This document shows, piece after piece, positions 5,514 through 44,120 of a DNA stretch of 64,000 nucleotides. Numbering within the stretch: position 1 is the stretch's first letter; every line of letters begins with the position of its first letter. The notes under the pieces are model-generated. The model was not told where the DNA came from and did not search any database. It was given only the letters and a program-made list of their open reading frames with translations. The position numbers and the translations under genes are program-made. This DNA comes from a virus. The stretch lies in IMG/VR virus record IMGVR_UViG_3300031521_000039, positions 21,198 through 85,197 of that record. One strand, written 5' to 3'.

Positions 5514-5545
5514 ATAAATTAAAAATAAAAGGAGTGTATTTAATT

Positions 5546-6664
5546 ATGCAAAATAAGATAATTGATTGTGGAATATATAAAATTATAAATAAGACAAATG
5601 GTAAACTTTATGTCGGTAGTAGTAAACATATTCATCAAAGATGGGACGAACATAAAGAAATGTTAGTAAATAATAGACATCATTCTATAAAACTTCAAAG
5701 AGCGTGGAATAAGTATGGCAAAGATAATTTTAAGTTTGATATAATTCAAGAGTGTAAAGAAAGTGAATTACTAGATGTTGAGCAAAGATGGATAGATGAA
5801 TTAGATTCATTTAAAAATGGTTATAACTGTACCAATGATACAAAAAATCCATTTAAAGAATATGATAAAACCAATAAAGAAGAAACCTTGGAAAAGTATC
5901 ATAATATATTACTAGAAATGAAGCAAGGAATTTACTTAATAATTACTGAAAAAGCATATTATGAAAGAATGTTAGAAAAAACAAATAAGAAAACATATGA
6001 CTATAAAAGAATAGCCACTATTATGTATTGGTTTAAAACTAATTTTGATATTACTAAATATATTTTATATATAGATATTAAGGGTAAAAAGACAACAAAT
6101 ATAAATATACAAATATGGGATATGAAACAAAACAAATGTTTATATGATTACATAGAAAAAACTAAAACAATATATTATATAGGAACTGTATTAAAAGGAA
6201 GAAGTGAAATAATAGACAATACATTTAAAATTGATAAAGAAAATCCATTTTATAAATATAATTACATAGGAAAAACCTTTATCTTAGACATGGACAATAT
6301 AACTTATTTAGCAAAAGATGATGTCAAATTATATTTTGAGTATATTTATAATAGAAATGCTTGTGAGTTGCATTTTAAAAGTAGCAAAGCTGGAAAAGTT
6401 ACATTTGATGACGAAATAAGAATGGAGTATACAAATTATATTGATATATTAAAAACTATTTATATAGAACAATATAAAAATGTAAAAATTATAATAAACG
6501 AAATATTACAAAATTTATATAATATTGTTTTAGATAAGAACCAAATAAAATCCGTAGAACAAAATTTAAAAAAATATAAAATATATGGGGAGTTAAAGAG
6601 TATCTGCAAAGAATACAATTATAAATATAAAACATCAAAAGGCACTATTGTTATCTATAATTAA
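5546..6664 (+). CDS. GIY-YIG homing endonuclease with long C-terminal extension
   Basis: A 372-residue protein. ATG 5546 follows AAAAGGAG at good spacing; an in-frame GTG 12 bases earlier overlaps the binding site. Residues 4-90 hold the GIY-YIG nuclease: CGIYKIINKTNGKLYVGSS, an Arg in HIHQRWDEH, WNKYGKDNFKF and the catalytic Glu in LLDVEQRWID. The remaining 270 residues are Lys/Ile/Tyr-rich with no recognised DNA-binding motif. It is free-standing and sits in a short island between the lysis and fibre genes, as mobile endonucleases often do. The nuclease domain is firm; the C-terminal role is unknown. Confidence 0.8.
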   Translation: MQNKIIDCGIYKIINKTNGKLYVGSSKHIHQRWDEHKEMLVNNRHHSIKLQRAWNKYGKDNFKFDIIQECKESELLDVEQRWIDELDSFKNGYNCTNDTKNPFKEYDKTNKEETLEKYHNILLEMKQGIYLIITEKAYYERMLEKTNKKTYDYKRIATIMYWFKTNFDITKYILYIDIKGKKTTNINIQIWDMKQNKCLYDYIEKTKTIYYIGTVLKGRSEIIDNTFKIDKENPFYKYNYIGKTFILDMDNITYLAKDDVKLYFEYIYNRNACELHFKSSKAGKVTFDDEIRMEYTNYIDILKTIYIEQYKNVKIIINEILQNLYNIVLDKNQIKSVEQNLKKYKIYGELKSICKEYNYKYKTSKGTIVIYN

Positions 6665-13513: not shown

Positions 13514-14938
13514 ATGAGACAAGTATTTATAGATAAACTACCTAAGAAAAAGAATAGTTTTAATTGGGAAAAATCCATTGGTTATATTGTAAATTTCGTA
13601 TATGATAATATTAATGGAAAATTAGAAATAGTTAATTATCAAAAAGGGTATTTATTTGTGCGTTATAATAAAATAACAACTAAAATTTTCACAGGTTCTT
13701 TTACAAATGGAAGAATAGGATGTATTATAGGTAAAAAGACAAAAGATTTTAAAATAGATGTTGGACAAGCTATAAAAGATGAAAAAAGAAACATTATAAT
13801 TACCAATAGAGAATATAGAAAAGATAATAAAGAGAAACAATGGAAATGGTATAAATACACATGTAATGTGTGTGGTTGGACTGAAGGTTGGACAGAAGAA
13901 TTAGCTTTGTTAAAAGAGCACAATTGTGCATGTTGTACTAATAAAAAGGTGGTTCAAGGAATAAATGATATTACAACTACTAATCCAGAAATGATTTGCT
14001 ATTTTCAAGGAGGATATGATGAAGCTAAGTTATATACTTATGGAAGTAATGAAGAAATATATCCTATTTGTCCAAACTGTGGTAGAATAAAAGACAAAAA
14101 AATGAAAATATACACAATATATAAACAACATTCAATAGGATGTACTTGTTCTGACGGTCATTCATATCCTGAAAAATTTATATGCTCTTTATTGGAACAA
14201 ATTAATATAAATTTCATATATCAAGCAACAAGATTAGATTTATCTTGGTGTAATAATTATAGATATGATTTTTATTTTGAATGGAATAATGAGTCGTATA
14301 TTATAGAAACACATCAGCTTCAGCATTATAAGGATAAAACACGAGATAGTAGAAGAACTTTTAATGATGAACAAAATATAGATAATCAAAAAAAAGAATT
14401 GGCTTTAAAAAATAATATTAATCATTATATAATTTTAGATTGTAGAAAATCAGAATTGGAATGGATTAAAAATAGTGTTATGGATAGTAAGTTGCCTAAT
14501 TTATTATATTTTAAAGAATATAGTATAGATTGGTTAAAATGCAATGAATTTGCTTGTAGTAATTTAGTAAAAGCTGTTTGTAATTATAAAAAGAGTAATC
14601 CGGAGATTATGCCCTCCAAAATAGCAAAGATTTTTAAAATAGCACATAATAGTACAATTAATTACTTAAAACAAGGTGTTGAATTAGGTTGGTGCTATTA
14701 TAATCCAAAAGAAAGTAGAATAAAATCAACCAAAAAGAATGGTCGAAAAAATGGAAAGGAAGTTGAAATATTTAAAGATGGAATTCCTTTAGGAAAATTT
14801 CCTAGTTGTGCTGAATTATCAAGACAATCTGAAAAACTATTTGGAGTTAAATTGATAGCAAATAGTATATCGTCAGTTTGTCAAGGGAAACAAAAAATGT
14901 ATAAAGACTTTATGTTTAAGTACATTATAAAATACTAA
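13514..14938 (+). CDS. EDxHD-type (Vsr-like) homing endonuclease with zinc fingers and NUMOD-like tail
   Basis: The protein has 474 residues. Residues about 115-145 form a zinc finger (YTCNVCGWTEGWTEELALL, then CACC), and a second lies at YPICPNCG. The nuclease core follows: SYPEKFICSLLEQ (Glu), YRYDFYF (Asp) and YIIETHQLQHY, the E-D-ExH arrangement of I-Bth0305I-like enzymes related to Vsr. The last 60 residues (EVEIFKDGIPLGKFPSCAEL, SVCQGKQKMYKDFMFKYI) resemble NUMOD1/IENR DNA-binding repeats. It is inserted between two fibre genes and is probably mobile. No intron boundaries are apparent. Confidence 0.75.
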   Translation: MRQVFIDKLPKKKNSFNWEKSIGYIVNFVYDNINGKLEIVNYQKGYLFVRYNKITTKIFTGSFTNGRIGCIIGKKTKDFKIDVGQAIKDEKRNIIITNREYRKDNKEKQWKWYKYTCNVCGWTEGWTEELALLKEHNCACCTNKKVVQGINDITTTNPEMICYFQGGYDEAKLYTYGSNEEIYPICPNCGRIKDKKMKIYTIYKQHSIGCTCSDGHSYPEKFICSLLEQININFIYQATRLDLSWCNNYRYDFYFEWNNESYIIETHQLQHYKDKTRDSRRTFNDEQNIDNQKKELALKNNINHYIILDCRKSELEWIKNSVMDSKLPNLLYFKEYSIDWLKCNEFACSNLVKAVCNYKKSNPEIMPSKIAKIFKIAHNSTINYLKQGVELGWCYYNPKESRIKSTKKNGRKNGKEVEIFKDGIPLGKFPSCAELSRQSEKLFGVKLIANSISSVCQGKQKMYKDFMFKYIIKY

Positions 14939-17865: not shown

Positions 17866-18984
17866 ATGGCAACACCAATAGTAATAGATGGAAGAGCAAC
17901 TTATTTAAACTTAGGACAATTTATTTTTGACACTTTAGAAGCAAACGGATGGACAAAAGAAATGTCAGTTTTAACTGATGCAGTAATGAAGAAAAATTAT
18001 AATGGTTCAGATCACTTTGTATTTTTTACACCAATAACAGCAGATGGATATCAAACAACAGTTGGAAATGCAGAAGGATATACAAGAGGAAAAACTGGAG
18101 TAACTTGTGCCTATACAGAAACTACTACTGGAAGTCCAACAGTAGCGGAAGTCGGAACTATAACGGTTCAAAATTTCTGTACTACTGCGGGTAATTATAA
18201 TTTCAGATTTAAAGATGGAACAATTGATGTAACAATTCCAGTTCCAGTTTTAGTAACAGATAATACTACAAATTTAGTAGCAACAAAATTAAAAACTGCA
18301 ATTGATGCAAATACAACTTTTATGGCTAGTTATACAACAAGTATTTCAAATAATATTATTACTTTTACTAAGAAAGCAAATGGAATAACGCCGGTAGTTA
18401 TTTTATTTGATATTGGAATAACTGGAGTAGCTGGCGTATTTGTAAATAAAAATGCTAGAACATTAAGTTGGGGAAGTACAACAGTTGCTTCGGCTTCTTA
18501 TGTAAGTGTAAGAATATATTTATGGGATGACCATTTTGTAATTGGTGTTAATCCAGATACTGGTGTGGCAAATTCACAACCATTCTTATTATATTCTGGT
18601 TCTCCTAAATCCTATGGTGGAGTAAAACTTAATAACTGGGGAGATATGATAGGTGGAACTTGTTTAGAAGCCGTATCGGTATACCCAGTAAGAAATAGAA
18701 CAGGTGCTACTAATAGACCAACTTATCAAACACAAGGTTCTATAGCTCCAATAAATCCAGGGGAAGATGGACTAATGTACATATCTCCAATGTCAGTTGC
18801 AAATGCTACAGATGGTATTAGGGGTGATTTTCAAGACATATATGGACTACCTGCATCAGGGGTTCAACACTTAGATACTCTTACAAAAGGTGGAATCGTA
18901 CATGATATTTGGATTTCTGGAACTACTGGGTCTACTACATTTGCTGGAACAAAAGTAATTGCAGTATTCAATAGAACTGTATAA
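17866..18984 (+). CDS. virion structural protein with inserted beta-sandwich domain
   Basis: A 372-residue protein starting MATPIVIDGRATYLNLGQF. Residues about 80-200 look like an inserted domain of the kind found in tail proteins (GNYNFRFKDGTIDVTIPV, NLVATKLKTAIDAN, NIITFTKKANG). The flanks (YVSVRIYLWDDHFVIGVNPD, GLMYISPMSVANATDG) appear to form one conserved unit. It is probably a tail-tip or fibre-associated protein. It has no signal peptide and shares the fibre operon. Confidence 0.55.
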   Translation: MATPIVIDGRATYLNLGQFIFDTLEANGWTKEMSVLTDAVMKKNYNGSDHFVFFTPITADGYQTTVGNAEGYTRGKTGVTCAYTETTTGSPTVAEVGTITVQNFCTTAGNYNFRFKDGTIDVTIPVPVLVTDNTTNLVATKLKTAIDANTTFMASYTTSISNNIITFTKKANGITPVVILFDIGITGVAGVFVNKNARTLSWGSTTVASASYVSVRIYLWDDHFVIGVNPDTGVANSQPFLLYSGSPKSYGGVKLNNWGDMIGGTCLEAVSVYPVRNRTGATNRPTYQTQGSIAPINPGEDGLMYISPMSVANATDGIRGDFQDIYGLPASGVQHLDTLTKGGIVHDIWISGTTGSTTFAGTKVIAVFNRTV

Positions 18985-41086: not shown

Positions 41087-41677
41087 TTATTTAACTATAT
41101 ATCCTTTTACTTTCTGAACTCCTAATTTAGAAATACGTTTAGAGTATTCTCTATCGCTTTCACCATATTCTCTTTCTATAAATACATCTAGTCTTGTATC
41201 TATTGCAAAATGTTTATTACTTCCTTTATCATTTACAATAACCTGTCCATATCTTTCTAGGTATATTTGAGTATTTTGTGGTATTACATTATTTGCAACT
41301 CCACCTCGACTAAGTTTTTTACCTTGACTTGTTATTGATCCATAACCATTTTCTGAATTCATAGAACTATAAAATGTTAATACAAATTCTTGCCATTGTG
41401 GTTCAATCTTCTTTTGTTTTTCCAACTCTTTTTCTTTTTGTAATTTTAATTCTTCACCTTTCTTTTTCTCTAGTTCTATTTTATCTCTTTCATATTGTTC
41501 TTGCATTGGATTAATTAATAATCCAAATTTATCAGTTTTTAGTACCATTTCTTTTGCATTAACTTGTTTTTCAGCTATCTGCATTGCATTATTGTGAAAT
41601 GGTGTTTGGTGTGTACTATATGTAGATAATAACAATGTTGTACTAAGTACACAGACAATCCTCTTTCCTTTTAGCAT
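41087..41677 (-). CDS. secreted 3D-domain cell-wall protein
   Basis: A 196-residue protein. A signal peptide is visible (MLKGKRIVCVLSTTLLLSTY), followed by a charged coiled segment (EKKKGEELKLQKEKELEKQK). The C-terminal 100 residues resemble a 3D double-psi barrel (FVLTFYSSMNSENGYGSITSQ, VIPQNTQIYLERYG, FAIDTRLDVFIE) found in muralytic transglycosylase-like proteins such as YabE/Rpf2. It should act outside the membrane on peptidoglycan. It directly follows the MCP-like gene, so both may change the host cell before lysis. Confidence 0.65.
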   Translation of the reverse strand: MLKGKRIVCVLSTTLLLSTYSTHQTPFHNNAMQIAEKQVNAKEMVLKTDKFGLLINPMQEQYERDKIELEKKKGEELKLQKEKELEKQKKIEPQWQEFVLTFYSSMNSENGYGSITSQGKKLSRGGVANNVIPQNTQIYLERYGQVIVNDKGSNKHFAIDTRLDVFIEREYGESDREYSKRISKLGVQKVKGYIVK

Positions 41678-41698: not shown

Positions 41699-42562
41699 TT
41701 ATTTTTTAATCATAGTTATAGCTTTTTCTGTTTCATTTGCAATCTCTACTGTGTTATTAGCAAGTTCTTGAACCGCTGAACTAGTTTGTTCCATACATGC
41801 ACTTACTGAAATCATTCCATCATTTATTCCTTCTATACGTGATATTCTAAGTACATTACTTTCTTTGAGTTTCTTACTATTTTCTTTACCTGTTTCAGTT
41901 TTTTTAAGAATAATATTAGCTGTAACTTGTAAGTCTTCTACAATTTTACTAATCATTGTACTTGAGTTTTTAGTTTCTTCTGCAAGTTTTTTAACTTCAT
42001 TAGCTACAACTGCAAACCCTTTGCCAGCATCTCCTGCTCTTGCAGACTCTATACTTGCATTTAGCGATAAAAGATTAGTTTGATTAGCTATTTCTTTGAT
42101 TACATTTGTTATTTTAGAAATATCTTTCATTTTTACATATAATTCATTTGCATTATTATAGTTGTCAACATTATCATTATGGAATACTTCCATAATTCCA
42201 CTATTATTTTTTGCACTCTCATATGCAAGATTAACTTCTGAAGTAATATGAACTATATTTGATGTTACTTCTTGTATAGTAGCACTTATTTCTTCAACTG
42301 AACCTGCTTGACCGGTAATAGTATTGTTGATAGTTTCTATTTCTGTAAGTATATTTTTACCTACTTTATTTGTTGATTTTTTATATTCTTCGAATTCTTT
42401 ATCTTTACTAATTAAAGTTGTATGTAGTTCTTTATTTTTTAATTCTAGTTCTTTGATTTTATTATCACTTTCTAGTTTAAGTGTTTTTAACTTGTTGTCC
42501 ATTTCCTTTTCTAAAGATTCTCTTAGTTCTTGTAGTCCTTTTGTATTTTTAAATATTTTCAT
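41699..42562 (-). CDS. soluble methyl-accepting chemotaxis protein-like signalling protein
   Basis: A 287-residue protein. There is no membrane helix or recognisable sensor domain; residues 1-65 are coiled coil. Residues about 75-285 form an MCP signalling hairpin, with the conserved tip near residues 157-182 ([20 protein letters not shown]) and [20 protein letters not shown] after it. The tip is the part that contacts CheA and CheW. It starts by an ATGA overlap with a 25-residue gene. A phage-made cytosolic receptor could rewire host chemotaxis or other kinase signalling. The domain call is firm; the role is inferred. Confidence 0.85.
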
Positions 42563-42636
42563 GTTGATACACTCTCCTTTAATTCAATTTTTATTCTTTT
42601 TGTTTTTAATAGCTTATATATTGTGTCATCTCTCAT
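42559..42636 (-). CDS. 25-residue leader-like gene coupled to the MCP gene
   Basis: An AAAGGAG binding site precedes an ATG, and the short ORF ([20 protein letters not shown] and five more) ends in ATGA with the MCP start. It may be a real small protein or a coupling leader setting MCP translation. Confidence 0.45.
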
Positions 42637-42652
42637 TATTGATTGTCTCCTT

Positions 42653-42907
42653 TTATATTTTAATTTCTGTTACTTCATCTTTAATTTCTATTTCCTTACT
42701 TCTGTCAAAATTAAAATGATTGTTTATCCCAATATCACTTTGGAAATAGAATTTTTCATTACAATTATCTGTTAAACATCTTGCTACAAATTCAACATAT
42801 TTATTACCTTCTATTTCTACTAGCTTGTAATCACTTGTTAACTGATAATCAGATTGTTCACATTTAGGACAATAGGGTATATTATCTTTAAGAATTGATT
42901 TAAACAT
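42653..42907 (-). CDS. zinc-ribbon protein
   Basis: An 84-residue protein. YCPKCEQSDY and RCLTDNCNEKF provide two cysteine pairs 30 residues apart. This is one of five adjacent small Cys-rich genes. Its function is unknown. Confidence 0.55.
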   Translation of the reverse strand: MFKSILKDNIPYCPKCEQSDYQLTSDYKLVEIEGNKYVEFVARCLTDNCNEKFYFQSDIGINNHFNFDRSKEIEIKDEVTEIKI

Positions 42908-44084: not shown

Positions 44085-44120
44085 TTAAAAATACCAACAA
44101 GAATTTCTCCTGTTGGTATT
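44085..44120 (-). terminator. terminator of the topoisomerase operon, overlapping a promoter
   Basis: On the - strand AATACCAACA pairs with TGTTGGTATT (10 bp, 11-base loop) followed by TTTT. The ascending arm directly abuts the -10 of the promoter at 44121-44149. A transcript starting from that promoter begins inside the arm and cannot form the full stem, whereas read-through RNA from the topoisomerase genes can. Confidence 0.75.

Follow-up and report, generated by a model that had tools for sequence, protein, structure and literature searches.

A conserved family of soluble chemoreceptor-like proteins in large phages and its possible action on the host chemosensory kinase

What a chemoreceptor-like signalling protein could do for a virus is the question raised by a gene found among the replication genes of a phage. 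The DNA analyzed here, below called the window, is a stretch of 64,000 nucleotides comprising bases 21198-85197 of an 85,197-bp IMG/VR virus record. An earlier note, made from the sequence alone, had described an ORF at 41699-42562 as encoding a soluble, chemoreceptor-like phage protein with a nearly canonical signalling tip and a coiled coil in place of the sensor parts. At these coordinates the minus strand indeed bears one intact ORF of 287 amino acids (42562 to 41699), whose ATG start is preceded by AAAGGAGAG. The sole Pfam domain in its product is MCPsignal (PF00015, residues 132-280, E 3.2e-32), which scores 112 bits against a curated cut-off of 34.6 bits, also exceeded in records G001-G004, and the protein is a genuine member of the MCP signalling-domain family. 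In PHROGs it is assigned to the uncharacterised family phrog_8572.

The description of the protein as soluble holds as well. The domain search revealed MCPsignal alone, with neither HAMP nor a sensor family such as globin or PAS; a recognisable cytoplasmic sensor is common in soluble chemoreceptors and not obligatory for them. No membrane helix was detected, the highest Kyte-Doolittle mean over 19 residues being 0.88 in the window receptor and 0.46-1.54 across the six large-phage receptors tested, compared with more than 2 in most other viral-contig MCPs and in typical membrane MCPs scanned in the same way. The AlphaFold2 model, computed from an alignment of six phage homologues, is a hairpin of two helices (7-175 and 181-286) joined by a turn at 176-180, with a mean pLDDT of 88 and a pTM of 0.47, a low value as expected for a long rod. 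Since helix 1 spans residues 7-175, the N-terminal ~65 residues (coil at ~7-65) form a single continuous coil that prolongs this helix past the end of helix 2, in agreement with the coil postulated in place of the sensor parts.

The signalling tip of the hairpin (residues ~155-193) aligns without gaps to the tip of E. coli Tsr in 3zx6, and sequence matches were obtained to the Thermotoga receptors of the CheA-CheW co-structures 3ja6, 3ur1, and 4jpb, as well as to the soluble Thermotoga receptor 3g67. A loss of tip residues on alignment, which would have spoken against the original description, was looked for and not seen: mean conservation among the nine full-length phage members is 96% at residues 161-180, compared with 49-77% in other blocks. 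These nine proteins share 50 invariant positions, and their tip motif QTNxLxLNAxIExARAGxxGxGFxVVA does not vary outside the x positions. The Tsr contact residues I377, L378, N381, E385, and R388 presumably correspond to L164, L165, N168, E172, and R175 of the phage protein; with contacts mapped in this way by homology, all five are unchanged in the nine members. We take a further contact, Tsr F373, to be represented by N160, a position that varies among the phage proteins.

Two further features of the protein are newly described here. The strict methylation-site motif is matched in both arms of the window protein, from residues 86 and 254, and delimits adaptation-type regions at 86-100 and 254-270; the C-arm motif is weaker in records L023, L072, and L096. 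Heptad-spaced E/Q pairs at 90/91 and 97/98 in the N-arm mirror those at 265/266 and 258/259 in the C-arm about residue 178, which is the modelled tip turn, and their equal distance from the tip is what is expected of facing adaptation sites in an antiparallel hairpin. As judged from sequence, these mirror-placed methylation-type motifs are retained in most members, which argues for a receptor capable of adaptation, as opposed to a tip alone. The other feature is an exchangeable N-terminal coil. It is conserved within the large-phage family, whose members share a conserved start with F-K-N. The proteins of L072 and L096 differ greatly over the first 58 or so residues (33% identity) and hardly at all over the other 231 (97%). 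The coil is therefore exchanged as one module, the pattern one would expect of an input or targeting module.

A search for homologues among phages, proposed together with the original description, showed that 18 IMG/VR records encode this short soluble receptor. Fifteen of them represent seven lineages of large phages (up to ~220 kb), and the remaining three (L072, L096, and L137) belong to at least two lineages of other phages, whose gene set differs (SSB, DnaB, dCTP deaminase). Protein searches identified homologues 82% and 57-60% identical in viral contigs of 196, 141, 121, and 65 kb. A degenerate pattern of the tip matched 12 stretches in 2.9 million contigs, each encoding a short soluble receptor, and wider patterns added L072, L096, and L137; a scan of genome contigs with narrow patterns returned weak cellular MCPs only. 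In a tree of 76 MCP domains, comprising the nine phage proteins then known and 67 others, mostly from viral contigs and with cellular Clostridium receptors hardly sampled, the nine phage receptors form one clade (100/99 support). The Nei-Gojobori dN/dS ratio between the window and L002 is 0.20 for the whole gene and about 0.15 within the signalling domain, and ranges from 0.19 to 0.54 in more distant pairs, where high dS makes the values rough; the family is under purifying selection. Between the window and L023 lineages, the receptor is better conserved than the neighbouring genes, with 42% identity versus 30% for topoisomerase subunit A and 25% for subunit B. Retention of the receptor across many phage lineages suggests that these phages plug into the chemotaxis machinery of their hosts.

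The genomic setting is also conserved. In the window the receptor gene belongs to a minus-strand phage replication arm, as had been noticed from the sequence: topoisomerase II subunits B and A are encoded upstream, DnaE, RecJ, primase, and DnaB farther upstream, and the anaerobic ribonucleotide reductase NrdD downstream. Topoisomerase genes precede the receptor in the window, L002, L003, and L033, and ribonucleotide reductase genes follow it in the window, L002, L003, L018, L019, and L023; L171 and other shorter loci end before these positions. Directly after the receptor gene, in all seven large-phage lineages, stands the gene of a secreted 3D-like protein (41087-41677 in the window, minus strand; phrog_9810) with a signal-peptide-like start, a coil, and a 3D-domain-like C-terminus. 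Its similarity to PF06725 is below threshold (E 0.2 in the window, 5e-4 in L018), and the L018 homologue is SpsC-like. An MFS transporter gene is located between this gene pair and the ribonucleotide reductase gene in L002 (8414-9603), where it reads as two ORFs, and in L023 (4772-5968), where it reads as one.

On the other side of the receptor, a frequent neighbour is an 84-aa protein with Cys pairs (CPKC...C...C; 42653-42907, minus strand). Used as the sole query, this protein retrieved eight viral loci, every one in a record with a receptor gene nearby; a further lineage, represented by the 218-kb record L171 and its copy L172, was found in this way, with the receptor 0.4 kb away. It adjoins the receptor in the unrelated phage L137 too. 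The 25-residue ORF to which the earlier note had coupled the receptor exists (42559-42636, minus strand), and the overlap of its stop with the receptor start codon in ATGA probably reflects translational coupling. The emphasis placed on it was not borne out: among the nine members whose upstream DNA was read, only the window phage and the L003 lineage carry a homologue, and a role as essential partner was rejected.

The receptor and 3D-like genes close an operon of small genes, at the head of which is a candidate promoter (44060-44031, minus strand; TTGACA, 18 nt, TAATAT with a preceding TG), a consensus match of a kind no more frequent in the region than expected by chance. Behind the topoisomerase II subunit A gene, dividing it from this operon, is a terminator-like hairpin (44090-44120, minus strand) with a 14-bp stem and a T run, one such hairpin being found against 0.4 expected. 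In L171, the gene of a protein that resembles a sigma factor by eye (1566-2165) precedes the receptor gene at a distance of a few genes; this protein could serve phage promoters.

About 65 nt upstream of the receptor start, five of the seven large-phage lineages share a previously undescribed element, GACAATTTAG-N-GTTGACA followed by 6-12 variable bases and GCCAAC. Genome-wide scans covering four of the five lineages, all except the L171 record, found its exact 18-mer in a single copy linked to the receptor. The sole other match to the forward pattern with up to two mismatches is at 17915 of the window record, inside a coding sequence; matches in L026-L028 were rejected as chance-like, being not upstream of a receptor gene. 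The L171 record was retrieved through the neighbour protein and nevertheless carries the element, and thus provides an independent check. The element is conserved and specific to the receptor gene. In the window and L003 lineages it is missing, and the 84-aa and 25-aa ORFs stand directly upstream instead. The TTGACA within the element suggests a -35 box; an Rfam search with it gave no credible match, and the predicted RNA folds of the receptor leader are weak and differ between lineages. We regard it as a candidate promoter, operator, or RNA element.

The data suggest Clostridium-like bacteria as hosts of the large phages that carry the receptor. The window DnaE is 46% identical to that of LIBA6276, a member of the big plasmidial siphophages of C. 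difficile, which are reported to be maintained in the form of extrachromosomal circles (PMC5786514). The window also encodes a tyrosine recombinase, and free-standing endonuclease-like genes with relatives in record G011 occur among its structural genes at 5534-6664 (GIY-YIG-like by eye) and 13514-14938. The two ends of G011, which to judge from its identifier comes from a non-metagenome IMG genome, repeat each other, indicating a probably circular element of about 210 kb, as estimated from the period of the repeated genes. It encodes a terminase, a tape-measure protein, and a Tubulin/FtsZ-family GTPase (L041 11231-12349; PF00091, PhuZ-related in PHROGs), possibly a partition or phage-centring tubulin; no tRNAs were detected in this record, and no near match was found among the phages or plasmids searched. 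A circular phage element fits plasmid-like persistence, in which case the receptor could act over many host generations.

Family membership, an intact tip, adaptation-type motifs, solubility, conservation, and a fixed context are thus all shown by computation. In our judgement, the phage probably makes a true chemoreceptor signalling protein of the cytoplasmic type, acting on a chemosensory kinase of the host. A CheW domain, which is also part of CheA, is absent from all 13 phage records searched; this rules out a phage-encoded CheA or CheW partner in these records, and any kinase partner would be the host's. Entry into arrays, the direction of the effect, and its timing are what we infer beyond this. 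Dimers of the hairpin would form trimers through the conserved tip, and the trimers would join CheA-CheW complexes in the host arrays, biasing CheA output. The N-terminal coil would stand in for a ligand domain and determine the input of the receptor or its location; the receptor may be tuned by methylation enzymes of the host. The likely outcome, during phage carriage or replication, would be altered CheA output leading to altered swimming or to another behaviour under CheA control.

The main rival of such a working receptor is a decoy or locked fragment, the tip of which would titrate CheW and CheA or fix CheA in one state with no sensing or adaptation, so that infection would turn chemotaxis off or on. 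Constitutive signalling is known from cytoplasmic fragments of E. coli Tsr, and the phage protein, being soluble and devoid of a sensor domain, is best conserved in its tip, all of which would suit a decoy. However, most members bear adaptation-type motifs in mirror positions, and the coil, conserved in large phages and replaced as a unit between L072 and L096, would be superfluous in a decoy. It is these mirror-placed motifs and the exchangeable coil that make a working receptor a better explanation than simple titration, even if the C-terminal arm, which falls about 30 residues short of that in most of the receptors scanned, counts against it; we favour the working receptor and hold a pure decoy to be rather unlikely.

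Reuse of a receptor-derived coiled coil as a scaffold, unconnected with CheA and serving to organise, for example, proteins of replication, partition, or the envelope, might be proposed from the location of the gene in the replication arm beside topoisomerase II and a secreted protein. Foldseek matches, too, include Smc arms; structure comparison alone does not discriminate among long helical hairpins. A scaffold would not require that the invariant part be exactly the kinase-contact tip, and the receptor occurs in unrelated phages with other neighbours, which makes this role improbable. Finally, many MCPs of viral contigs are membrane receptors of ordinary type and full length that seem to stem from hosts, and the window gene might likewise have been captured from a host in recent times, or be contamination from a prophage edge, and serve no function in the phage. 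The earlier note had named a recent host fragment as the finding that would undo its proposal; the family is instead old and conserved between phages. Purifying selection, the single clade, and phage synteny, with the neighbour gene fixed in seven lineages down to 42% identity and the same upstream element in five of them, single-copy where scanned genome-wide, led us to reject a recent fragment and leave capture without function scarcely credible.

Extending the working-receptor reading, we tentatively consider that clostridial phages possess a dedicated chemosensory module that taps host CheA and thereby changes the swimming of carrier or infected cells. The module would jointly comprise the exchangeable-coil receptor, the secreted 3D-like partner, the Cys-rich partner, and the gene-specific regulatory element; this composition is conceivable with the same reserve. 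If true, the module would report or impose the state of the phage via the CheA pathway of the host. With a conserved phage receptor family, the control of host chemotaxis by phages could be tested directly in laboratory strains; such a family would also offer a minimal natural receptor, with no sensor, HAMP, or membrane part, for the study of receptor-driven CheA.

Soluble receptors in bacteria and receptor-like genes in other large phages are already known. Our search of the open-access literature yielded no account of a phage-encoded family of chemoreceptors that acts on the signalling of the host. The phages phiCD5763/LIBA6276 (PMC5786514) share with the window phage the dnaE-recJ-primase-helicase order and a 3D-like homologue, whereas an MCP domain is absent from LIBA6276. 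The MCP signalling domain also occurs in proteins of the jumbo phages Vibrio XC31 (610 aa; L034 1184-3016), Asteriusvirus A4 (470 aa; L036 1544-2956), and MaAM05 (508 aa; L035 1763-3289), the first and the last annotated as hypothetical and that of A4 as an MCP. Unlike the receptor described here, those of XC31 and A4 have strong membrane segments and that of MaAM05 a long N-terminal domain, and all three fall outside the phage-receptor clade. Full-length transmembrane MCPs also lie among phage-like replication genes in L163 (5150-6835), L164 (3424-5109, on an 83.6-kb contig), L057 (5318-6985, on a 210-kb contig, near a response-regulator-like gene), and L115 (1166-2818); these may represent another type of phage-borne chemoreceptor, independent of the first.

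Among cellular proteins, HemAT and YfmS of the Gram-positive bacterium B. subtilis (PMC7542364) are, like the phage protein, cytoplasmic and free of membrane helices; both are bacterial genes, HemAT has a globin sensor, and YfmS is likened by description only. Tm14 of Thermotoga maritima (3g67; complexes 3ur1 and 4jpb), matched both by sequence and in the fold search, is similarly a short soluble signalling hairpin with the same tip, but it is cellular and has 213 amino acids, whereas the phage protein is phage-encoded and has an extra N-terminal coil of ~65 residues. Soluble receptors elsewhere assemble cytoplasmic arrays (PMC3964821). FrzCD of Myxococcus xanthus is likewise cytoplasmic with no obvious sensing domain, and differs in its basic DNA-binding tail and two HAMP domains; the phage protein has no HAMP and a mixed-charge coil, with a Lys cluster confined to its first nine residues. 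The N-terminal part of FrzCD sets location and array formation, and FrzCD demonstrates that signalling is possible for a receptor lacking an obvious sensor (PMC12077210). What is new in the present case is a conserved family of sensorless, soluble receptors that belongs to phages and has a fixed neighbour and, as the sequences indicate, an upstream element of its own.
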